Positions 31,717-41,598 of a stretch of DNA of 64,000 nt are shown one piece after another. Under the pieces are notes generated by a model that was given only the letters and a program-made list of their open reading frames with translations, was not told where the DNA came from and made no database searches. The stretch covers positions 62,001-126,000 of the forward strand of contig VGJW01000002.1 in assembly GCA_016867265.1 (NCBI GenBank), read 5' to 3'. Positions within the stretch are counted from its first letter, which is position 1; each line of letters begins with the position of its first letter. The translations under genes and the position numbers were made by a program. Source of the stretch: Candidatus Tanganyikabacteria bacterium. Lineage in GTDB: Bacteria; Cyanobacteriota; Sericytochromatia; S15B-MN24; VGJW01.

Positions 31717-32625
31717 TTACTCCGCCCGGCGGTCTTTCTCGGCCGGAAAATCCACCAGAGCCTCGGTCGAAAAGCTTCCGCCAGCAGCCTCGAAGGCCTG
31801 CCCCACTCGCCGCAGGATGCGGTCCACCTCGTCCAGGTCCGGCCCGAGCGTGAATCGGACTCCTCGGCGCCTCAGGTGGTCGAGGACATCGGCCAGCAAG
31901 TCCTGGCAGTCGCGGCCCTCGTAACCTTCCGTGACATCGAAGGCCAGCCGTCCCCCGGGTGCCACCCGCCAGACCACGCGGCGCCGGGGCTCCGCACGTG
32001 TCGCCGACAAGCGCCGGTCCGTTCCGAACGCCTCATCGCGCACAATGGCGTAGCCGGCGGCCCCGAGGGCCTCGGCCAGCAGGTCGCCCACATGCCGTTG
32101 TTGCAAGACCTCGAGGGAGCGGACACCGTCCCTGCGTACCTGGTCCACCTGGGCGAGCCAGGTCTCGAGATCCCTATCGGCGGTGGCCACGCCCGAAAGG
32201 TCGGCCTCCAGCCGCCTGCGTCCTTCATCGGCAAGGGCGTCGAGTTCGGTATCCCCCCGGGGGTCGCCTGCTTGCCGGGCACGATCGATCTGCGCCAGAT
32301 GGGCCATGGCGCGGATGGCCCGGTCCCGGCCTCCGTCCCTGTCGGCGAAGCGTGCGTCATAGGCCTTGGCTTGGCGCAGGCATTCGTCCCGCCACGCATC
32401 CTGCAAGCCCCTGACCAGATCGGATCCTGCACGCACGAAGCGCGCCCCCCACGCTCCCGTGGCCTCGCCCAGCATGCCGAGGCCCTCGCCCGCGGCCCGG
32501 GTGATGCCGCAGGCGCCGGCAGCCAGCAAGGCCCCGCCTTCGAGGGCGGCACTGCCAATCGCGAGGCCTGCCATGCCAACGGGCGTGACGAGGGCGTTGA
32601 CGATCAGATCCCCTTCCGCGCTCAC
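31717..32625 (-). CDS. Unknown protein of the ubiquitin-like operon, DUF2997-like C-terminal segment
   Basis: A 302-residue protein, last of nine tightly packed genes. The N-terminal 60 residues are Gly/Ala-rich and hydrophobic (TPVGMAGLAIGSAALEGG), able to associate with membrane. The middle (65-190) is helical and charged, probably coiled coil. Residues about 190-290 form an alpha/beta domain in which VAPGGRLAFDVTEGYEGRDC recalls the short DUF2997 pattern (Gly, then Val-x-Gly-x-x-Gly-x-x-Cys) found near Ycf46-like ATPases; this is a weak resemblance. The GTG at 32625 overlaps the previous stop (GTGA), so it is translationally coupled. No enzymatic motif seen. Confidence 0.7.
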   Translation of the reverse strand: MSAEGDLIVNALVTPVGMAGLAIGSAALEGGALLAAGACGITRAAGEGLGMLGEATGAWGARFVRAGSDLVRGLQDAWRDECLRQAKAYDARFADRDGGRDRAIRAMAHLAQIDRARQAGDPRGDTELDALADEGRRRLEADLSGVATADRDLETWLAQVDQVRRDGVRSLEVLQQRHVGDLLAEALGAAGYAIVRDEAFGTDRRLSATRAEPRRRVVWRVAPGGRLAFDVTEGYEGRDCQDLLADVLDHLRRRGVRFTLGPDLDEVDRILRRVGQAFEAAGGSFSTEALVDFPAEKDRRAE

Positions 32626-32918
32626 AGGGCGTCACGCTCTCCGCCGGGTCGGATGCCCGTGCTCTGGCCCAGCGTGCGGACCTGGTCTTCAAGCTCGGCG
32701 ATGCGATCCTGCATCGTGCGGAGGCGCGCCTGTGCGGCCAGCAACTCGTCCTGGTAATCGGCGACCAAGCGCTCGGCGTGGACCAGCCGCTCTTCGAGAT
32801 CCGTAGCGTGGCTGCCGGAAGAGGTGACGGATTCGGGCCCTTTGGGCGGCTTGATCCACGTGCCCGAGCCCAGGTCGCGGATGGAGCGGATGATCGAATC
32901 CTCAGGCAAGCTGGTCAT
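32622..32918 (-). CDS. Small coiled-coil protein of the ubiquitin-like operon
   Basis: A 98-residue soluble protein. The ATG at 32918 is 7 bases after GGGAGG; the frame is open to 32945 but without a better site. The N-terminal third contains SIIRSIRDLGSGTWIKPPKG, perhaps a binding motif. The rest (about 45-85) is a clear heptad-rich coiled coil (LVHAERLVADYQDELLAAQA). It follows the JAB gene after 16 bases and its stop overlaps the next start. Likely an adaptor or oligomerisation piece of the same complex; function unknown. Confidence 0.7.
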   Translation of the reverse strand: MTSLPEDSIIRSIRDLGSGTWIKPPKGPESVTSSGSHATDLEERLVHAERLVADYQDELLAAQARLRTMQDRIAELEDQVRTLGQSTGIRPGGERDAL

Positions 32919-32930
32919 GGAGGCGCCTCC
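32919..32930. promoter_or_regulatory. Palindrome covering the ribosome site of the coiled-coil gene
   Basis: GGAGGCGCCTCC is a perfect 12-base palindrome touching the ATG at 32918, and most of the GGGAGG Shine-Dalgarno lies in it. Dimerisation or folding with flanking bases could mask the site, making this gene dependent on ribosomes arriving from the JAB gene. Confidence 0.35.
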
Positions 32931-32934
32931 CGTA

Positions 32935-33582
32935 TCAGAAACCATGGTGCCAGAGCCACCAGCCCAAGGCCCCGATCAGGGAGAGGATGCCCCAAAGCCA
33001 GACCCCGGTGGAAGACCGGCCTTCCCGGGGAGGCGGCATCTTTGCGGGACGGGCGGGAAGCGTGGCGATGGTCCCCGGCATGTGCGCAGACAGCCTCGCC
33101 TCTCCCGTCCAGGCCACCAGCCCCAGACGTCGATCCGCATCGGTCGCCAGCGGATCGAGCACCAGGGCCACCTGGAACGGCAAGGAAAACTTGCGATGGT
33201 GGACCTCGAGGTCCGGTTGCGAGAGGAAAACTCCGTGGCCCGGGTGCGTGTGGCACCATCCGACCACGTACAGGGCATCCGGGCGTGCCGCGACCTCGTC
33301 GGTGGACCACGTTCTCCATTGCTGATGCGCCCGGATGAAGGCCTCGGCAGGGAACGTGAAGGTCTCGGCATCGCCGTCGCCCGGTATCTCCTCGAGCTGC
33401 TCGAGGCGGACCCACCAGCCCTCCGGAGTCATCCGGGCCTTGCCAAGGATGAACGCGCCCGCCTCACGACCCTGCCGGGCCGAGCGTTGTCCGAAGTCCT
33501 CGAGGGCCGCCACGAAGGGGTCGGGTATCTCGATCTCGGGAGCGCCGGGGGGCAGGCCCGGCCAGTGGCGGACCGCCGTCAC
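32935..33582 (-). CDS. JAMM/JAB-domain metalloprotease with C-terminal membrane anchor
   Basis: A 215-residue protein of the JAB1/MPN/Mov34 family, which removes or matures ubiquitin-like proteins. Glu40 (REAGAFILG) and the zinc motif H111-x-H113-P...S121-x-x-D124 (HTHPGHGVFLSQPD) give a complete JAMM site, so it should be active. After a Pro-rich linker, residues 193-210 form one membrane helix followed by a short His-containing tail, so the enzyme is tail-anchored with the catalytic domain facing the cytoplasm. The GTG at 33582 overlaps the E2 stop (GTGA); the longer upstream frame is a shadow of E2. Possible roles are Ubl maturation, deconjugation, or both. Confidence 0.9.
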   Translation of the reverse strand: MTAVRHWPGLPPGAPEIEIPDPFVAALEDFGQRSARQGREAGAFILGKARMTPEGWWVRLEQLEEIPGDGDAETFTFPAEAFIRAHQQWRTWSTDEVAARPDALYVVGWCHTHPGHGVFLSQPDLEVHHRKFSLPFQVALVLDPLATDADRRLGLVAWTGEARLSAHMPGTIATLPARPAKMPPPREGRSSTGVWLWGILSLIGALGWWLWHHGF

Positions 33583-34211
33583 GCGGGAAAGGTCTTCGAG
33601 AGGGGGAAGAGCTCGGGCATCTCCGCCAGGGTGTCCGTGTACCAGCGCAGGGCCGTCTTGTTGAGCGCGTGGGCCTCGTCGAGGTTCACGGCGCCGGGAT
33701 CGGCATAGGCCGTCATCATGAACAGGCGACGCACGAGGTCCGCAAGGGCGCGGTCCGGCTGGGCCCAGGCCTGCTTGTCCCCGTAGCAGGCAAGGCCATT
33801 GTCCCACCGGATATTGGGATGCCACACCCGATCGATGTAGTAGACCTCCGGGCTGACGGGACGATTGAGATCCTCGGGCATGAAGATGCGCAGCCGGATG
33901 GGAGCCTGCGCGGGATCCTCGAGGGGTTCCGCAAAAACGGGTTCCCAATCGAGGGGGCCGGGACGCGTGGTGCGAACGAAGGCCTCGGGATCCCCGCCGA
34001 AATCCCGGACGAGCGAGCGTCCGCGTACCTCCATGTCACGGATGGCGACCGTGCGAAAAGCCAGATCCAGTCGGACCGGCGCCCGCCGTGCCAGCGGGTC
34101 GAGCCACGCTACGGGTACGGCCGTGATCAACGGGTGGGTGCCCGAGCAGGCGGCAAGCGCGGCCAGCCCCTCCCATTGGCGGGCCAGATGGTCGGCAAGC
34201 ACCTCGTTCAT
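33579..34211 (-). CDS. E2-like ubiquitin-conjugating enzyme fold protein
   Basis: A 210-residue protein. The first ~55 residues are an extra helical segment. From about 100 it follows the UBC fold: strand IRLRIFMPEDL, then YYIDRVWHPNI with the HPN motif at 131-133, then NGLACYGDK with candidate catalytic Cys142, Trp149-x-x-Pro, a helix (ADLVRRLFMMTAY) and the closing DPGAVNLDEAHALN helix, matching the W-x-P, PNP-region and N-x-x-A positions of eukaryotic E2s. All landmarks needed for thioester transfer are there. The ATG at 34211 overlaps the Ubl stop (ATGA), and its own stop overlaps the JAB start. Partners are the E1 and Ubl encoded beside it. Confidence 0.88.
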   Translation of the reverse strand: MNEVLADHLARQWEGLAALAACSGTHPLITAVPVAWLDPLARRAPVRLDLAFRTVAIRDMEVRGRSLVRDFGGDPEAFVRTTRPGPLDWEPVFAEPLEDPAQAPIRLRIFMPEDLNRPVSPEVYYIDRVWHPNIRWDNGLACYGDKQAWAQPDRALADLVRRLFMMTAYADPGAVNLDEAHALNKTALRWYTDTLAEMPELFPLSKTFPA

Positions 34212-34480
34212 GCGACGGTCCCGGGACTGGCCATGGCGAGCGTGGCACCGTCCGGGACGCAGACGTCGAGCACGTCCCCGTCGTCGAGCAACGCGCCGTC
34301 CCATGCCATCAAGTAGGGGCGGACCTCCCCGCGCATGTCCCGCCGGGGTAGCCCCCATTGGTCGACAAGGGCGGCTTTCAGGGCGGCCACGGTCGTTCCG
34401 GCCGCGACCTCATAGGCCTTGGCCCCACGTGCCCTGTCCTTCAGGTCCTGGTCCAGAATTTCGATGACATAGTGCGGCAT
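34208..34480 (-). CDS. Ubiquitin-like beta-grasp protein
   Basis: A 90-residue protein with the beta-grasp layout: strand HYVIEILDQD, strand AKAYEVAAG, helix TTVAALKAALVDQWG, strand VRPYLMAWDG, then LLDDGDVLDVCV and the last strand TLAMAS. Length and secondary structure match ubiquitin-like modifiers. The C-terminus is SPGTVA, not Gly-Gly. Either it is processed to a single Gly (after SPG), or it is non-canonical and may not be conjugated. The position immediately before E2, with ATGA overlap, strongly supports its role as the modifier. It starts 6 bases after the preceding stop and lacks a strong Shine-Dalgarno, so it is probably translationally coupled. Confidence 0.85.
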   Translation of the reverse strand: MPHYVIEILDQDLKDRARGAKAYEVAAGTTVAALKAALVDQWGLPRRDMRGEVRPYLMAWDGALLDDGDVLDVCVPDGATLAMASPGTVA

Positions 34481-34486
34481 GTTCGT

Positions 34487-35122
34487 TCATGTTCCCCGGT
34501 GGCCCGATTGCATCAGCAGCAGGATCGCGCAGGCCCCGAGGCCAAGCAGCATCGGCGCCCAGGTCCAACCCGGCTCGCGCCGCGTCGGGATCGGCGTGGT
34601 CGTCAGACCGTCGTGCCCGCAACCGGCGCAGCGTGCCTCGGCCATGATCCAGTGGGTGCCGCATAAGGATCGCAGGCATTCGGGGCGGATGCACGCCAGC
34701 GGTTGTTCGCGGCATCCCGGCACCGCGCACCGGCCCAGCTGCACGGCCTGCCGTTCCCTGACGAGGCGAAACAGGTGGTACCCCGGTGTCGCGCGAACCT
34801 GCGATGCCCGCCATGTCCCCATCGCGACCCCGAGGGCCCAGCCCATGGCGGCGAGGCAGCCCCTCTGCACGTCACAGGGGGGTACGGCGCCGGCGACGGC
34901 CGCGACCGGCAGTCCCCCGAGTCCCAGCCACCATGCGGCATTTGCCGTCGCCCAAGAGGCGGCGTCCTGCCGTCTTGCCCGCCACGCCAGCGTCGTGGCG
35001 AGGGCGCCAGCCCAACCCAGGAAGGGGGCCACGACCACGACTTCCGGGGCGGCGTGCGTGGCCATCCCGAGGACGGCCACGGCCACGAGCGCCGTCAGGC
35101 TGGTTCGGGAGCGCGGCTTCAC
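34487..35122 (-). CDS. Polytopic membrane protein with Cys/His zinc-finger-like loop
   Basis: A 211-residue protein with four hydrophobic helices (about 9-22, 29-47, 62-80, 90-104), a soluble loop, and a final helix (about 188-204). The loop holds C132, C137, C144, C149, C154, H157, C165 and C168. The part C-x2-H-x7-C-x2-C (CGTHWIMAEARCAGC) is the spacing of B-box type treble-clef zinc fingers; the set as a whole could bind two zinc ions. In an operon with E1, E2 and Ubl, a membrane protein with a cross-brace-like zinc module is an obvious candidate for an E3-like adaptor, but this is inference. The GTG at 35122 overlaps the E1 stop (GTGA). Confidence 0.75.
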   Translation of the reverse strand: MKPRSRTSLTALVAVAVLGMATHAAPEVVVVAPFLGWAGALATTLAWRARRQDAASWATANAAWWLGLGGLPVAAVAGAVPPCDVQRGCLAAMGWALGVAMGTWRASQVRATPGYHLFRLVRERQAVQLGRCAVPGCREQPLACIRPECLRSLCGTHWIMAEARCAGCGHDGLTTTPIPTRREPGWTWAPMLLGLGACAILLLMQSGHRGT

Positions 35123-36276
35123 GGAAGGGCTTGCTCGACCAGGCCGGGCCAAGTCACCAGCCACTCGGCGGCAGGGGTGAACCAGCGCAGCCCGACGTGC
35201 GGCGGCATCCCCAGGGCCTCGGGGGTTCGTGAACCGAGAGGATGGCCGGCAGGCAGATGACGCAGGCTTTCGGCGTGAGGATCGGGCGTGTCGCAGGCCG
35301 GACAACGCGCCGGTACCTCGGCGGCCCAGCGCCAGTCCGAGGCAGCTCCGCAGGAAGGACAGCCCGAATGCCTTACGAGGTGCCCCTCGACGCCGACGAT
35401 GCCGTCGTTGCCCAGCGCCTCTGCCAACGCGGCGAAGGACCACCTATGGACCGGGCCGTCGACAGGCAGGATCCGAGGGGGCGCATGCCATGGGCACCCG
35501 GGACGCGCATTCCTGCGCCTGAGCGCATGTACCGCCGGGCCGCGCAGGCTCCAATGGGTGTAACTCCCCCACGCAGGAGGCAGGTCGGGGGCCGGCAAGC
35601 CATGGACCGCATGCAGTACGGAAAGCGTCTCGAGCGCCATCAGGCCACCCAGGATCGAAGCCGTCATGGGCGTAGAAGGCACCCCGTCGGCCTCCGCGGC
35701 CTTGGTCCCGGCAGCCGCGCAGCCTCCCCGGGGCAGCTCCTCGGCCAGCAGCCGGTCGCCGGTGCCGGGCGGCAGGTGGCATTCGAGGCACGGTCCTTCC
35801 ACGCCCGGATGCGTGGTCAGCGTCACCTTGAAGAGGTCGGCTGCATCGCCGAGGCCTCCTTGGATCCAGGGGATGCCGGCCACGCGGCAGAGGCGCCCGA
35901 GCCGGACCTGGGCGGCCAAGCTGTCGAGGGCGCCGACGGCCACGTGGGCTCGGGCCAGCAGCGCGGGAGACAGCACGGCCACATCCAGCTTGAGGGGGTG
36001 GACCGCCGTGTCCGGGGCGAGTTCCCGGAGGGTCCGGGCTGCGGCCGTGACCTTGGCCTCGCCCGCCTGTTCGGCGCGAAAGAGCACGGACCGTGTCAGG
36101 TTATGGACGGCGACGGTGTCCCGATCGACCAGCACGATGCGGCCGACACCCATGAGGGCCAGGTTCTTCAGGACCTCGTTGCCGACGGCGCCGACGCCGG
36201 CGAGCAGGACGGTCGACTCGGCCAAGGCTGCGCGGTTCCACCACGGAATGGCCTCGAGGCGCACGAAACGGCTCAT
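35119..36276 (-). CDS. E1-like (ThiF/MoeB-fold) Ubl-activating enzyme with zinc ribbon
   Basis: A 385-residue adenylating enzyme. The nucleotide-binding loop is GVGAVGNEVLKNLALMGVG (27 onward), followed by acidic strand end VDRDTV (Asp51/53), NLTRS with Arg62, Lys75, and Asp118 in GALDS, all landmarks of the E1 family. CLEC (163-166) and CPSC/CPAC (306-328) form zinc-binding pairs. Cys186 in GGCAAAG, followed by PSTPMTASILGGLMALETL, sits where MoeB/ThiF and E1 enzymes carry the reactive Cys. It has one adenylation domain, unlike fused eukaryotic E1s. The ATG at 36276 follows GGGGGA by 6 bases and overlaps the vWA stop (ATGA). It should adenylate the Ubl for transfer to E2. Confidence 0.9.
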   Translation of the reverse strand: MSRFVRLEAIPWWNRAALAESTVLLAGVGAVGNEVLKNLALMGVGRIVLVDRDTVAVHNLTRSVLFRAEQAGEAKVTAAARTLRELAPDTAVHPLKLDVAVLSPALLARAHVAVGALDSLAAQVRLGRLCRVAGIPWIQGGLGDAADLFKVTLTTHPGVEGPCLECHLPPGTGDRLLAEELPRGGCAAAGTKAAEADGVPSTPMTASILGGLMALETLSVLHAVHGLPAPDLPPAWGSYTHWSLRGPAVHALRRRNARPGCPWHAPPRILPVDGPVHRWSFAALAEALGNDGIVGVEGHLVRHSGCPSCGAASDWRWAAEVPARCPACDTPDPHAESLRHLPAGHPLGSRTPEALGMPPHVGLRWFTPAAEWLVTWPGLVEQALP

Positions 36277-38426
36277 TCGGCGTCCCCCTTCAGGTAAGCC
36301 TGCCAGAGGGCGAGCGCTTCGGCGCGCATCGGTGGCGGGTGGACTGCAGGAGCCAGGAGTCGCTCGGTCCTGCGCCAGGCATAGGGCAGTCCGAGACCGC
36401 CGAAGGCCAGCAGGATCGCCATCGGCAGCCAGATTGCCAGTCTCATGGCCGGCGTGCCCGGCAGGGGCGGGACCATCCCGCCGCTGAGGTGGCCCGTGCC
36501 CGTGGCGCCGGTACCTGCAAGCGTTACGGCCAAGGCATGCGTGTAGGGATCGGGGACACGGCGGCCCAACGACAGTTCCAGCCCGTAGCTGCCCCGAATG
36601 GCACGCAGGACACGGCCCCACGCGTCATCCATCGCCCTCGGGTCCGGAGCCAGTTGGAAAATGCCCCCCCCCTCGCCTGCGAGCCTGCGCATGCCCGGCA
36701 CGTCGACCCAGTCCCGGCTACCCCGCGGGGCTGTCGTGCTCCCGTAGGCGATGGCGTGCAGCGGACAGCCGATCCGGCGTGCTTGGGCGATGAGGGTCCC
36801 GGACGTGGGGGCGCCCGGGACGTTGTGTGCACCGTCTGTCAGCGCCACAAGCGCGAGCCGCAGGCCCGGATCCGCCCTGTGGTGATCTTCGAGTTCCTTC
36901 AGGGCACGTGCCACGGCACCCCTCAGGTTGGTGGTCCCGGCTCCCCAGCGCGCAGGTTCGATGGCCGAGATGGCGCGCTCGAGGCGATCGCGATCGCTGG
37001 TGGGTGCCTGGACCTCTATTGCCTGATCGAAGGACACCACCATGACCTGATCCAGCGGGTCGAGGCGGCGCACGAAGGCCCGGGCGGCCTCCCTCACGAC
37101 TTGCATGCGGCTGCCGAGGCCGTGGCGACCGGCCGATGCCAGCATGCTTCCCGATCGGTCGAGGACCAGGGCCACGCAAACGGGCTGTCGGGACACTTCC
37201 CCCGTACCTGCGGCCAGCACCGGGACAGGCTGTCCGTCGAGCGTTGCCCGGAAGGCCTGCGGCGTCAGGCCCTCGACAGGCTCGTCGCCACGCAGCACGA
37301 GGACCGTCGCCCGTGCGCGCCAGCGACCCGCGCCATCGCGCACCGGCAGGACGGCCGTTTGCTGGATGCGGAGGCTGACAGGGCCCCCCGCCGCCTCTGC
37401 CAAGTCCGCAGGCACGCCCGTCGTCGCCATGGCGAGCAGGCCGGCGAGCGCGATCTTGCCAGGACGGGTGACAAGGCGTTGCAGCCGTTCGAGGCTGACA
37501 TGCAGATGGGTGCCCTCGCCCAGCCGCAGGACCTCGCCATCCCTGAGTTCGACCGCATGGCCGGGCGTCAGGCGGTGGAAGGTCACGTCCGTCAGCAGGG
37601 ACAGTTCTTCCGTCCGCAGGGGGCGATCGGAGCGGTCGACGCGGGCCTGGCCGAGGGGGCGCACCCGCAGGATGGCCCCTTGGCGCTCGAGTTCGAGGTG
37701 GCGGGCCTGGATGCCGGGATCTCCCGTCAGTGTCCACGTGGCCTTGAGGCTGCCGAGGGTTTCCCGGGTCGCGATGCTGCCCACGTCGAAGGCGAGGCCC
37801 AGTTGCTTGCCGAGCGGGGAAGTAAGCACGACGAGGCGCGCGCGACGCGTCAATACCTGAGCCAGGCCCATGCCGGCCCCAAGGCAACCGCCCAGCACGG
37901 CGAGGCCGACGGTCGTGACCAGCACCGCACCCCCGGGCGTTCCCGAAATCGGACCTGCCCAGTCCGGGGCGCGCTCGATGACGATGCCGCCCAGCAGTCC
38001 CCCTGCGGCAGCACCGAGACCCGCGGTCACGGCGCGACGACCCGATGCGGCCTTGAAGCCCTCAGTCAGGCCGGTGGCCAGGCCGAACAGCCCCCATGAG
38101 AGCCCCCGGGCCCAAGGCGCATGCCCCAGCCAGCCATAGGCGGCCGTGGCCAGGAGCAAGCCCACCGTCCCGAAGACCAGGCCCGCGGCAGCCCCGCGCA
38201 GGGCGGCAGGAAGCCAGCGCAAGGGCGTTCGTACCAGTGCCGCGTCCAGCAGCAGGATCTCGAGGATGGCGAGGCCGCCACCCAGACCTGCTCCGAGCAT
38301 CCCGCCCTGCATGGCGGCCCGTGCACGTTCCGAGGTCAAGGTCAGCCACGCGGCGCACTCGGCTGCCGATTGCCAGCCCAGGATGCAGAGGGCGCCCGCC
38401 CAGAGGGCAAGCTGGACGATCGTCAC
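36273..38426 (-). CDS. Polytopic membrane protein with FHA-like and von Willebrand factor A domains
   Basis: A 717-residue protein. About six hydrophobic helices (residues 5-190) are followed by an FHA-like beta domain (about 200-310; ARHLELERQG and AVELRDGEVLRLG resemble FHA strands), another hydrophobic segment (324-338), a beta region, and a vWA domain (about 413-600). The MIDAS metal site is complete: D423-x-S425-x-S427 (DRSGSM), T499 and D531 (LTDGAHN). One more helix lies near the C-terminus, so vWA and FHA may be on opposite membrane faces. vWA proteins often partner AAA ATPases, and the AAA gene is directly upstream with a GTGA overlap at 38423-38426. Probably a scaffold or substrate sensor. 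Confidence 0.85.
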   Translation of the reverse strand: MTIVQLALWAGALCILGWQSAAECAAWLTLTSERARAAMQGGMLGAGLGGGLAILEILLLDAALVRTPLRWLPAALRGAAAGLVFGTVGLLLATAAYGWLGHAPWARGLSWGLFGLATGLTEGFKAASGRRAVTAGLGAAAGGLLGGIVIERAPDWAGPISGTPGGAVLVTTVGLAVLGGCLGAGMGLAQVLTRRARLVVLTSPLGKQLGLAFDVGSIATRETLGSLKATWTLTGDPGIQARHLELERQGAILRVRPLGQARVDRSDRPLRTEELSLLTDVTFHRLTPGHAVELRDGEVLRLGEGTHLHVSLERLQRLVTRPGKIALAGLLAMATTGVPADLAEAAGGPVSLRIQQTAVLPVRDGAGRWRARATVLVLRGDEPVEGLTPQAFRATLDGQPVPVLAAGTGEVSRQPVCVALVLDRSGSMLASAGRHGLGSRMQVVREAARAFVRRLDPLDQVMVVSFDQAIEVQAPTSDRDRLERAISAIEPARWGAGTTNLRGAVARALKELEDHHRADPGLRLALVALTDGAHNVPGAPTSGTLIAQARRIGCPLHAIAYGSTTAPRGSRDWVDVPGMRRLAGEGGGIFQLAPDPRAMDDAWGRVLRAIRGSYGLELSLGRRVPDPYTHALAVTLAGTGATGTGHLSGGMVPPLPGTPAMRLAIWLPMAILLAFGGLGLPYAWRRTERLLAPAVHPPPMRAEALALWQAYLKGDAE

Positions 38427-40288
38427 GTGGCCAACCTGGCCAGGGCCCGCTCGAGCGGCGCATTGCTGCGCTCCTGCTTGCAGGCCTCGACCAGTTCGGC
38501 GAGATGCGCCGGGAGCTGCCGGGGCAACATCGAGTAGAAGTTGGCCGCGATGAGCGCCCGCAACGCCTGCTCCTCGTAGATGACGGGATTGTGGTTCGGC
38601 TTGTGGTCCTCGAGCGCACGGACGAGGCCGTCCTGAACGATGATGTTGTCCGCGGCCAACTCGGCAGCCCGACGGACGATGACTTCGAGGCCCGCACCAG
38701 TCAGGCCGTCCGTTCGCGCCGCGATCGCGGCGAGGTCGACCGTATCCGCGAAGCGGGTGCCGATCCGGCCGGCGAGCGAGGCGAGGACGGCCACGCGCTC
38801 CTCGTGGTCCGGGGCCAGGATCGGGACGACACGGTCGAATCGTCGCAGCATGGCTGCGTCCAGATAGTCGGGGCGGTTGGTGGCGGCGACCCACAACACC
38901 CGGCCGCGATGACGGTTGTCTCCCATGAACTCGAGCAGTTTGCCGAAGATGCGCTTGTCGGTGTCGCCCCCGGCCCCGGCGGAGGGGCCGCCCCGGCTGC
39001 CCAGCGCCTGGTCGATCTCGTCGACAAAGACGAGTACCGGGGCGAGTGCGACCAACAGGTCGAGGACCTTGGTCAGGTTGCGCTCGCTCTCGCCCACCCA
39101 CATGCTGCGGATGTCCTGCAGCTTGACCATGTTGAGCTGGCTGCCGTGGGCGAGAGCCTCCGCGAGAATGGTCTTGCCGGTACCCGGAGGTCCGGCGAGC
39201 AGGATGCCCCTCGGCACCAGGGCGAGCGCCCGCTCCAGCGCCGCGGGATCGGCATCGGTCTGCCCGGCGCGGGCATTCAGATCGAGGTAGGACCGGATGC
39301 TCGCGATCTTGTCGCTCAGGTAGGCCTTGACGTGGGCAAGGCCGCCAATGGCCTCCAGGCCATGTCGGGTCTCGACGACTTGCAGCAGGCCGTGACTCTC
39401 GAGCCGGATGAGCTCGCGTTTGCGTTCGGTGACGAGGTCTTGCCCCACGGGACGGCCGGTGGCCGCTGCCAGACGCAGGGTGTTGAGCACGTCGCGCAGC
39501 GAGAAGCCGACGGTATGGCCCGCGAGGTCCGTCGGCGCAAAGTCGGGCAGCCATGTGAGCCGGCCGAAGTGGGCATCGGCGAGCACGTGGCTGATGTAGG
39601 CCCTGCGGGCCGGCGCATCGGGCAGGGGCACCTGCAGGGAAACCGTGCCGCTGTTGGCGCCCTGGACGGCTGATGCAACCTGACCGTGCTCGGCGGCCAG
39701 CATGATGATCAGGTGGCCGTGGTCGGCAATCTCTCCGTCCAAGGCCCAGCGTTGCAAGGTCTCGATGGCCAGCCAATGTTCACGGCCCCTGGCATCGGCC
39801 GGGGCCAGCTTGTCCACGTGGTCGAGAAGCAGGCACAGCTTCTGCCGTCCCTGCCGCATGGCGCGCTCCAAGGCCGGCAGGGCCTCGTCGGCAGGTTGTA
39901 GCGGGCTGCTGCGTCCCGCGCCCTGCAGGCGGCGGAAGTCGCGGTCGTCCGCCGTCGATGTCGTCGTCTCCCCGGCCGTTTCCCGAAAGCCCAGCAGCCC
40001 TCCGATGCCGGGGTCCCGGCCCAGCTCCTCGGCCCGGGCCATCCCGGTCGCGGGGAACCCGAGTCCGCGGGACAGGCTGTAGGTGACGATCAGGAACCGG
40101 TCGGCAAGCCGTTGGACCAAAAGGTCACGTACGGTCGTGATGCGGCCATCGGCCAGCACATGGTCCTGGATGTTGAAGTGCAGCAGGAACTGGTGTGCGG
40201 CCTTGGCGCGGTAGTGGTCGCTCAAGGCCCTGAACCACGACGGCAGGGCGGCAGGCGTGGTGGCGGACGCTTCGGTGGAATCGGACAT
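38423..40288 (-). CDS. AAA ATPase, Ycf46/Cdc48-like, with degenerate N-terminal AAA module
   Basis: A 621-residue ATPase leading the ubiquitin-like operon. The first ~300 residues look like an inactive AAA module: CLLLDHVDKLAP at a Walker B place, LIIMLAAEHGQV, and PLPDAPARRAYI, an arrangement seen in Ycf46-type proteins. The C-terminal module is complete: Walker A GPPGTGKT (366-373), Walker B VLVFVDEID (418-425), sensor Asn471 and arginine fingers in LRRFDR (482-485). GESERNLTKVL matches the pore-loop/second-region helix. The family unfolds or remodels proteins. The ATG at 40288 is 5-6 bases after AGAAGG. TerC lies 35 bases upstream. Confidence 0.88.
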   Translation of the reverse strand: MSDSTEASATTPAALPSWFRALSDHYRAKAAHQFLLHFNIQDHVLADGRITTVRDLLVQRLADRFLIVTYSLSRGLGFPATGMARAEELGRDPGIGGLLGFRETAGETTTSTADDRDFRRLQGAGRSSPLQPADEALPALERAMRQGRQKLCLLLDHVDKLAPADARGREHWLAIETLQRWALDGEIADHGHLIIMLAAEHGQVASAVQGANSGTVSLQVPLPDAPARRAYISHVLADAHFGRLTWLPDFAPTDLAGHTVGFSLRDVLNTLRLAAATGRPVGQDLVTERKRELIRLESHGLLQVVETRHGLEAIGGLAHVKAYLSDKIASIRSYLDLNARAGQTDADPAALERALALVPRGILLAGPPGTGKTILAEALAHGSQLNMVKLQDIRSMWVGESERNLTKVLDLLVALAPVLVFVDEIDQALGSRGGPSAGAGGDTDKRIFGKLLEFMGDNRHRGRVLWVAATNRPDYLDAAMLRRFDRVVPILAPDHEERVAVLASLAGRIGTRFADTVDLAAIAARTDGLTGAGLEVIVRRAAELAADNIIVQDGLVRALEDHKPNHNPVIYEEQALRALIAANFYSMLPRQLPAHLAELVEACKQERSNAPLERALARLAT

Positions 40289-40323: not shown

Positions 40324-41598
40324 TCAGGCCGGCAGGTAGGGGCCGGTGCCCCCCGGGTCCTTCGTCGTCGCGTCGCCGGCGATGGCCGACAGCAGGTCCA
40401 CGGGGGTGACGAGACCCGCCACCTGGCCGGCTTCGTCCACGAGCAGCACGAGGTTGCCCTCGGCACGACGGAGCACGTCGAGCAAGGTGAAGGCCTCTGC
40501 GGACGCGGGTGCCGTAAGGACGGGCAGGCTTCGGGCAACGGCCGCCAGGGACTGCCCGGATGCCATTTCGGCCAGCGCTTCCTTGGCACGCACCACGCCA
40601 AGGGGGCGATCGAGGCTGCCGTCGCCGACCGGCAGCAGGCCATGGGGTGCCGACAGCAGGCGTTCCCGGATCTCGGCGGGTGTCCGGGTCGCGTCGAGCC
40701 AGACGATGCGGGCGCGCGGCGTGGCCCACGCCGTCACGGGACGGTCGGCGAGTGCCAGAACGCCTGAGACCAGCTGCCGCTCGGGGTCGGCGAAGCCGGC
40801 TTCACCTGTCGCTTGCGGCGGACCATCGCCCAGCAGGCGCAGGATGCGCTCCGTCGTCCGCAACCGGAAGGGGCGCGCGGTCTCTGCCTTGCTCGCCTTC
40901 CGGTGGCGCACCTGGTTGAAGGTCTCGATCAGGATGGAGAAGCCTATCGCCGCGTACAGGTAGCCCTTGGGGACGTGGACGTGGAAGCCCTCGGCAATCA
41001 GGCTGAAGCCGATCATGAGCAGGAAGGACAGGCAGAGCACCACCACGGTCGGATGATCGGTGACGAAGCGGGCGAGGGGCCGGGACGCGACCAGCATGAC
41101 GCCCATCGAGATGATGACGGCCGCGACCATCACGCTCAGGTTGTCCACCATGCCGACCGCCGTGATCACCGAGTCTATCGAGAAGACCAAGTCCAGCAGG
41201 ATGATCTGGGTGACCACGGTCCAGAAGGGCGCATAGGTCGTCGCCTTGCCCGGTTCGTGGCCGGCGCCCTCGAGGCGCTCATGCAATTCCATCGTGGCCT
41301 TGAAGGTCAGGAACAAGCCGCCTGCCAGGAGGATCAGGTCGCGACCCGACAGGGCGAAGCCGGCCAGCGTGACCAGAGGCGTCTTCAGGCCCACGATCCA
41401 CGAGATGCCGGCCAGCAGGCCGAGCCTGAGCACGAGCGCCAGAGAGAGGCCGATGGTCCGGGCCTTGTCCCGCTGGGAGGGATCCAGCTTGTCCGACAGG
41501 ATGGCGACGAAGACCAGATTGTCGATGCCGAGAACAATCTCGAGGACGACAAGGGCCAGAAGGCCTGCCAGCAAGGCAGGATCGAGAAGATGAGCCAT
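40324..41598 (-). CDS. TerC-family membrane protein with C-terminal CBS domains
   Basis: A 424-residue protein. Residues 1-250 contain 7-8 helices with the TerC signatures EIVLGIDNLVFVAIL and DLVFSIDSVITAVGM, whose Asp residues face the membrane interior. TerC proteins export Mn2+ or act at sites of secretion; the CBS-fused branch resembles YoaE. Residues about 300-424 form a CBS pair that may sense adenine nucleotides. The ATG at 41598 gives the family N-terminus (MAHLLDP); no good ribosome site is seen, and the frame extends upstream without support. It ends 35 bases before the AAA gene and may share its transcript. Confidence 0.88.
   Translation of the reverse strand: MAHLLDPALLAGLLALVVLEIVLGIDNLVFVAILSDKLDPSQRDKARTIGLSLALVLRLGLLAGISWIVGLKTPLVTLAGFALSGRDLILLAGGLFLTFKATMELHERLEGAGHEPGKATTYAPFWTVVTQIILLDLVFSIDSVITAVGMVDNLSVMVAAVIISMGVMLVASRPLARFVTDHPTVVVLCLSFLLMIGFSLIAEGFHVHVPKGYLYAAIGFSILIETFNQVRHRKASKAETARPFRLRTTERILRLLGDGPPQATGEAGFADPERQLVSGVLALADRPVTAWATPRARIVWLDATRTPAEIRERLLSAPHGLLPVGDGSLDRPLGVVRAKEALAEMASGQSLAAVARSLPVLTAPASAEAFTLLDVLRRAEGNLVLLVDEAGQVAGLVTPVDLLSAIAGDATTKDPGGTGPYLPA

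Follow-up and report, generated by a model that had tools for sequence, protein, structure and literature searches.

The nine-gene locus and its conjugation core

The DNA analysed here, referred to as the window, is a stretch of 64,000 nucleotides from Candidatus Tanganyikabacteria bacterium (contig VGJW01000002.1, positions 62,001 to 126,000 of the forward strand), taken from a host assembly of 2.85 Mb that is 98% complete. It contains nine genes on the same (minus) strand, running from 40288 to 31717, that together resemble a ubiquitin-like conjugation operon. In order they encode an AAA ATPase, a membrane protein with a vWA domain, an E1-like activating enzyme, a membrane zinc protein (transmembrane-zinc, TM-Zn), a ubiquitin-like modifier (Ubl), an E2-like conjugating enzyme, a JAMM peptidase and two orphan proteins. 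All nine open reading frames reported in the initial annotation have positive coding scores, and the six 4-bp GTGA/ATGA overlaps that it listed (at 38423, 36273, 35119, 34208, 33579 and 32622) are all present. Pfam matches above cut-off were obtained for AAA, VWA_2, ThiF and Prok-JAB; no significant direct Pfam match was found for the E2, the Ubl, the zinc protein or the product of the last gene. All features of the window described below lie on the minus strand.

Residue conservation in the three enzymes was assessed by aligning the window proteins with their relatives (44 E1, 40 E2 and 35 JAMM sequences), and the family profiles were built without the window sequences. The E1-like enzyme (35119..36276, 385 amino acids) matches Pfam ThiF with an E-value of 1.4e-36 and the family E1 profile with one of 4.6e-95, carries the adenylation motif AG(V/A)GA(V/L)GNE, and has its best solved-structure matches in UBA7 and SAE2. 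Its catalytic cysteine C186 (codon 35719..35721) is invariant in all 44 sequences, as are the zinc cysteines C163 and C166, and R62 is conserved in 41 of them. The E2-like enzyme (33579..34211, 210 amino acids) has the HPN motif at residues 131-133 and its catalytic cysteine at C142 (codon 33786..33788). C142 and P132 are present in 40/40 sequences, H131 in 39/40 and N133 in 36/40. The protein matches the family E2 profile (E 1.7e-9), a profile that itself finds eukaryotic E2s at an E-value of about 1e-16, and its relatives exceed the Pfam UQ_con cut-off. Its structure model is modest (pLDDT, the predicted local distance difference test, of 70), and the Foldseek matches listed for it are E2s or E2-containing complexes, the best with E 1.6e-3.

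The JAMM/MPN+ peptidase (32935..33582, 215 amino acids) matches Pfam Prok-JAB above cut-off (E 1e-6) and the family profile (E 2.4e-32). Its motif HTHPGHGVFLSQPD (33211..33252) is accompanied by high conservation of the individual residues: E40, H111 and H113 in all 35 sequences, S121 and D124 in 34 of the 35. The Trp-rich, hydrophobic C-terminal tail, recognised in the sequence, falls below the automatic threshold for a transmembrane (TM) segment and is likely to be a membrane anchor; a TM segment is predicted somewhere in 52 of 69 related JAMM proteins. Judged from the sequences, the conservation of the E1, E2 and JAMM motifs among relatives excludes chance matching. The complete active sites claimed at the outset are thus intact and near-invariant over 35-44 sequences, and the E2 identity holds by profile, by the similarity to eukaryotic E2s and by the top Foldseek matches.

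The Ubl modifier (34208..34480, 90 amino acids, C-terminus ...SPGTVA) was initially described as a beta-grasp protein. Its AlphaFold model, built with relatives, bears this out (pLDDT 83): the best Foldseek match is the Caldiarchaeum ubiquitin (6fnn_C, E 3.7e-5), followed by ubiquitins and SUMOs, and the TM-score against ubiquitins is about 0.64. The relatives of the modifier exceed the YukD cut-off, and the window Ubl is too divergent to be detected by the family Ubl profile. In these relatives an Ala-Gly end lies nine residues after a conserved Asp-x-Leu. It is exactly terminal in many of them and is followed in others by a short variable tail (for example AG-QK, AG-VRS, AG-ARA or AG-FFKIC), a pattern that would fit a precursor trimmed by a peptidase, presumably the JAMM protein.

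The two genes at the head of the operon encode a motor and a membrane protein. The AAA+ ATPase (38423..40288, 621 amino acids) is of the Cdc48/FtsH type, as expected for the remodelling ATPase first proposed: the best NCBIfam match is CDC48/FtsH (CDC48/FtsH/PAN type), and the Pfam matches are AAA (E 8e-32) and AAA_lid_3. Its active AAA domain spans residues 362-488 (38825..39205) and, with Walker A GPPGTGKT at residue 366, contains the only P-loop. In the N-terminal half, which has none, a Walker-B-like LLLDHVDKL occurs, and this half may be a degenerate AAA domain. The vWA protein (36273..38426, 717 amino acids, GTG start) has five hydrophobic segments, four of them N-terminal and one C-terminal, and between these a vWA domain at residues 418-532 (36831..37175; Pfam VWA_2, E 2e-13) with an intact metal ion-dependent adhesion site (MIDAS) motif, DRSGS/GTTN/TDG. 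Hydropathy and MIDAS motif thus agree with its original description as a membrane vWA protein. The FHA domain also assigned to it is weakly supported, with PF00498 scoring 16.1 bits (E 0.016) against a cut-off of 20.7; a degenerate FHA domain at about residues 228-303 (37518..37745) is the most that can be proposed.

The membrane zinc protein (34487..35122, 211 amino acids), encoded between the E1 and the Ubl, has hydrophobic segments at both its N- and C-terminus. Eight Cys/His residues (C132 C137 C144 C149 C154 H157 C165 C168; 34619..34729) are putative ligands of a binuclear treble-clef or RING-like site, which makes the protein a candidate E3. Multi-TM proteins with a C-terminal Cys cluster occupy the same position between E1 and Ubl at L044 and at L068/L093, so that the predicted membrane zinc protein is matched in position by Myxococcota loci. 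BLAST found no similarity between the window protein and the TM-Zn protein of L068, and the likeness is therefore limited to position and layout. Recognisable RING-like proteins are encoded near the E1 in other relatives, namely at L052 and, weakly, at the second core of the host genome (see below). At L052 (L052:11180-15009) and L070, three separate JAMM-like genes share one cluster with a RING-like membrane protein.

Distribution of the core and relatives of the ATPase

The host genome encodes a second core of this kind, on contig C13 (L043:5851-9628), with genes for a TM protein, a RING-like protein, E1, Ubl (end AG-A), E2 and JAMM. Its E1, Ubl, E2 and JAMM follow the same order as those of the window, with 35-39% identity in pairwise alignment, and genes for an AAA or vWA protein are lacking. 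A search of genome contigs with an alignment of both host E1s yielded 131 relatives; of these, 80 were kept (L044-L123, the 80 related loci); in addition, the GTDB class was sampled with 18 genomes and the GTDB family with five. A core of the C13 type is present in all five family genomes (other copies L140-L143), some of the copies being cut by contig ends. That the C13 core arose by recent duplication was rejected, because the E1 tree unites the C13 copy with the copies found across the family (99/93) and sets the window E1 apart, on a very long branch; the pairing of the window E1 with Micromonospora may be an artefact of that branch. A search of 59 relatives with the single E2 sequence matched only the window itself, and the E2 profile found the second copy in the host genome and an E2 in 13 out of a sample of 386 genomes of the phylum.

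The synteny of the core spans several phyla. The Myxococcota again show E1, TM-Zn, Ubl, E2 and JAMM in this order, and a metagenome-assembled genome of that phylum (L044:9995-13533) has E1, TM-Zn, a Ubl-E2 fusion and JAMM, ordered as in the window core; a wider search around this genome covered seven genomes. The expectation that the gene order would be conserved thus holds for the core, both across phyla and within the family, but fails for the AAA and vWA genes: the AAA-vWA-E1 arrangement was found only in the window genome, and the AAA-vWA pair at no other place among the 80 related loci, the 18 class genomes or the family genomes. Crinalium epipsammum carries a core on a mobilizable plasmid (L153:9992-13469, NC_019754.1), which encodes E1, small proteins, an E2 annotated as a ubiquitin-conjugating enzyme and Mov34/JAMM.

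No homologue of the window AAA protein is encoded at the 80 related loci. Over its full length it aligns with a paralogue from the host genome and with homologues from six further genomes of the class, at 30-37% identity. In four genomes (L036, L037, L040 and L041) such a homologue adjoins a PspA/IM30 gene. The window ATPase differs from these PspA-linked proteins by a longer linker and by its neighbouring Ubl genes. Proteins of the PspA/Vipp1 type are bacterial relatives of ESCRT-III (ESCRT, endosomal sorting complex required for transport). Since the paralogues lie beside PspA and PspA is related to ESCRT-III, a membrane-remodelling partner is the probable ancestor of the window ATPase. The PspA-neighbouring ATPases themselves are candidates for one half of a bacterial ESCRT-III/Vps4-like pair.

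For the vWA protein, no homologue beyond the vWA domain was found in the 18 class genomes, where the single other vWA-domain match lies in its own genome, and a search of viral contigs with this protein gave no match.

Comparison with described systems and with injection-system loci

The E1/E2/Ubl/JAB core is of a known kind, that of the operons with a YukD-type Ubl, E1, E2, RING and JAB. Prokaryotic E1/E2/RING/JAB operons with YukD-like Ubls were reportedly described by Burroughs, Iyer and Aravind in 2011. The window shares with them a separate E1, E2 and JAB, a YukD-like Ubl and a treble-clef E3 candidate, and its relatives match YukD, UQ_con and Prok-RING_1. It differs in that its Ubl is divergent from the profile and ends in Ala, and in that its zinc protein matches no RING family. 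We know of no pair of an AAA and a membrane vWA protein among operons of this type. The novelty of the window is this pairing, together with the Ala-ended modifier. The Caldiarchaeum ubiquitin operon, with its processed Gly end and small RING protein, is not known to include a membrane vWA protein or a dedicated AAA protein. It resembles the window in being a compact set of ubiquitin, E1, E2, zinc-finger and JAMM genes (PMC5654768, PMC6043591).

E1, E2 and JAB, with or without a Ubl, are likewise combined in one operon in types 6a-6e of Iyer et al. 2006 (PMC1779556), in Bil (BilABCD), in the type II cyclic-oligonucleotide-based antiphage signalling system (CBASS) and in Bub. Types 6a-6c are marked by fusion of the E1 with an E2 or a JAB, the HPN-type His is missing from the E2 of type 6d, and a tandem Ubl occurs in type 6e (PMC1779556); BilA likewise has a tandem Ubl. 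The window, in contrast, encodes these components as separate proteins of one domain each, and its E2 has the canonical HPN motif. Searches with the Bil, type II CBASS and PADLOC family profiles gave only generic, partial matches to E1, JAB and IetA.

The closest published mixture of genes is that of the FtsH ternary systems of Kaur et al. 2020, in which Ubl tri-ligase systems are coupled to an FtsH-type AAA and a vWA protein, together with MoxR, EAD1 and caspase effectors (PMC7159879). The window shares the FtsH-type AAA with an N-terminal half that lacks a P-loop, the vWA protein, E1, E2, Ubl, JAB and a zinc protein. The vWA component and the Ubl tri-ligase are thus both present, the E3 part being uncertain. 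The ternary systems are further marked by a pair of AAA domains of which the first is inactive; in the window ATPase, with its one P-loop at residue 366, the N-terminal half is a putative AAA domain. It differs from these systems in that Ubl and E2 are unfused and in that the vWA protein is a membrane protein without a beta-propeller match (PMC7159879). MoxR is lacking in the operon, whose sole AAA protein is of the Cdc48/FtsH type, and none of the nine proteins matches EAD1, fvmX (both at E-values up to 1) or caspase. Because these marker domains are absent, we did not class the window operon with the FtsH ternary systems, in spite of the similar functional mix. A genuine FtsH ternary system was observed in one of the 13 E2-bearing genomes of the same phylum (L149/L152, G090:C3), with fvmX1, fvmX7, bpMoxR and an EAD1-YukD-E2 protein, in agreement with Kaur et al. 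2020.

Some relatives of the core are located beside contractile injection systems. The core is found in about 48 Bacteroidales loci, and the upstream neighbourhood was read in three of these (L155, G409:C40:124001-144000; L156, G405:C12:80001-100000; L157, G388:C15:5001-25000). There, genes for TssB-like, TssC, Hcp-like and VgrG-like proteins precede Ubl, E2, further genes, JAMM, a vWA-RING-FHA-like protein (c6), E1 and baseplate-like genes. TssC was identified by profile and the baseplate by a gp25-like match, JAMM was found by profile in two of the three loci, and the other type VI secretion system (T6SS) names come from sequence recognition; the TssF-like protein had no match in the PDB. 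TssC is present in all nine Bacteroidales genomes tested and, in three that were checked, lies some 11-16 kb from the E1 on the same contig. The c6 consensus was read as a vWA-like region, TM segments, RING-like cysteines (weakly supported) and an FHA-like end. Elsewhere, tube, hub, gp25 and Baseplate_J genes of a contractile injection system are immediately followed by E1, TM-Zn, Ubl and E2 in a Myxococcota/Pseudomonadota pair (L068:1679-12944 and L093:7636-12943), two clusters in which no JAMM was found. In an Acidobacteriota locus (L096:10019-16539) E1, Ubl, E2 and JAMM are followed just downstream by TssK (VasE) and DotU genes. Among the papers that were searched, none reported a link between a Ubl core and T6SS or other injection systems. 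These relatives suggest that bacteria may employ Ubl tagging on large envelope machines as well as in phage defence.

Proposed reversible tagging of envelope proteins and its alternatives

From the gene order, the folds or homology of the proteins, their intact catalytic residues and predicted membrane segments, and the conservation of the core, we infer a system for the reversible tagging of envelope proteins at the inner membrane, in which an AAA+ protein serves as unfoldase or remodeller. The E1 would adenylate the Ubl at its C-terminus and then hold it as a thioester on C186, from where it would move to C142 of the E2; as docking platform or as E3, the membrane zinc protein may take part. 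The membrane vWA protein would gather membrane or envelope proteins, to whose lysines the Ubl would be joined, and a tagged protein or complex would be pulled or remodelled by the AAA ATPase, with the vWA protein as adaptor. Finally, the Ubl would be removed at the membrane by the JAMM peptidase. To judge from the sequences, the part of this scheme that comprises conjugation by E1 and E2 and deconjugation by JAMM is probable. The scheme as a whole we regard as plausible, though somewhat short of an even chance. In its favour are also the hydrophobic segments of the vWA and zinc proteins, the PspA-linked paralogues of the ATPase and the association of an FtsH-type AAA, a vWA protein and a Ubl tri-ligase elsewhere.

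Several points weigh against this scheme. The window Ubl has Ala90 in the column where its relatives have Gly, and the usual C-terminal Gly is therefore absent. Either Ala90 could be used as the end, or the tail could be trimmed to Gly87 (PG-TVA). The Ubl of L068, from a cluster without JAMM, likewise ends in Ala. In ubiquitin the G76A change gives a variant that is used poorly as a substrate and forms conjugates that are hard to remove. Lacking the C-terminal Gly, the window system is at best a deviant member of the bacterial Ubl-conjugation systems. The candidate E3 has no match to Pfam or to a RING family, and no homologue of it is encoded at the 80 related loci. The same holds for the vWA protein at these loci, so that the AAA-vWA pairing receives no support from conservation. 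Lastly, both the action of the ATPase on tagged proteins and the nature of the substrates are extrapolated from the components.

A more specific form of the scheme, and a tentative one that we consider unlikely to be correct in full, is a membrane-embedded tagging-and-extraction machine, in which an Ala-ended Ubl, attached to envelope proteins by a cascade of E1, E2 and membrane zinc protein, would be read by a dedicated vWA-AAA pair, its ATPase being of PspA-partner descent. This would be a bacterial counterpart of endoplasmic-reticulum-associated degradation (ERAD) or of the ubiquitin-ESCRT/Vps4 pathway, dedicated neither to defence nor to a proteasome. The resemblance to eukaryotic ERAD (modifier, E2, membrane zinc protein, Cdc48-like ATPase and deconjugase) is an analogy drawn from the inventory of components alone. 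A full Ubl cascade with a canonical HPN-type E2 is present in a non-photosynthetic lineage of the Cyanobacteriota, tied to a set of membrane proteins and to a motor of the Cdc48 type, and nine small genes make it testable whether Ubl-dependent extraction of membrane proteins predates the eukaryotes.

Among the alternatives, a conflict or defence system related to the MoxR-vWA-FtsH ternary systems, in which conjugation of the Ubl would mark the targets of an effector, appears doubtful, though it is the most probable of them. The likeness in gene content to the FtsH ternary systems (PMC7159879) would fit such a role, as would the bona fide system at L149 in the same phylum, the occurrence of the core on a mobilizable plasmid (L153) and the sporadic distribution of the window type of operon. 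The operon, however, encodes no MoxR, EAD1, fvmX, caspase or other known effector domain and contains no PADLOC system, its neighbours are housekeeping genes rather than a defence island, as was noted initially, and the second copy of the core is retained in all five family genomes, unlike a sporadic defence island.

Alternatively, the genes could regulate the assembly or disassembly of one large envelope machine encoded elsewhere in the genome, much as their relatives appear to do for contractile injection systems, a reading that overlaps with reversible tagging of envelope proteins and that we hold to be rather improbable. The same core lies inside the Bacteroidales T6SS loci and, elsewhere, beside an injection-system baseplate and T6SS genes, and the domain mix of the Bacteroidales c6 protein (vWA-like, TM, RING-like and FHA-like, names that are interpretive) amounts to the vWA and zinc proteins of the window combined. 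Yet no homology is detectable between c6 and these two window proteins, and a contractile system is an unlikely client, since no gp25 baseplate gene was found in the window genome.

That the genes form a pathway of the ThiF/MoeB/ThiS type, serving a cofactor, sulfur transfer or peptide modification without any conjugation to proteins, is very improbable: the E1 does belong to the ThiF superfamily and the Ubl is Ala-ended without Gly-Gly, but sulfur transfer needs neither a dedicated HPN/Cys E2 nor a JAMM peptidase, the operon lacks genes for thiamine, molybdopterin or ribosomally synthesized and post-translationally modified peptides, and the best solved matches of the E1 are eukaryotic E1s.

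Two further genes complete the operon. The first encodes a small protein (32622..32945, 107 amino acids, or 98 if the start is at 32918) with only weak coiled-coil matches; it is an orphan, without a homologue among the 80 related loci. The last gene (31717..32625, GTG start) encodes an orphan of 302 amino acids with a hydrophobic N-terminus, for which no convincing family match and, at the same 80 loci, no homologue was found. Foreign origin of the operon was considered and set aside: its G+C content (0.68-0.72) equals that of the surroundings and thus bears no compositional mark of recent transfer. Upstream lies a gene for a TerC-CBS membrane protein (40324-41598). TerC is not conserved at this position within the GTDB family, and for that reason no empty site could be demonstrated. 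A promoter scan of the operon region found none. The TerC-CBS gene is on the same strand, 35 bp upstream of the AAA gene, and the transcript of the operon may therefore start further upstream and be shared with it.

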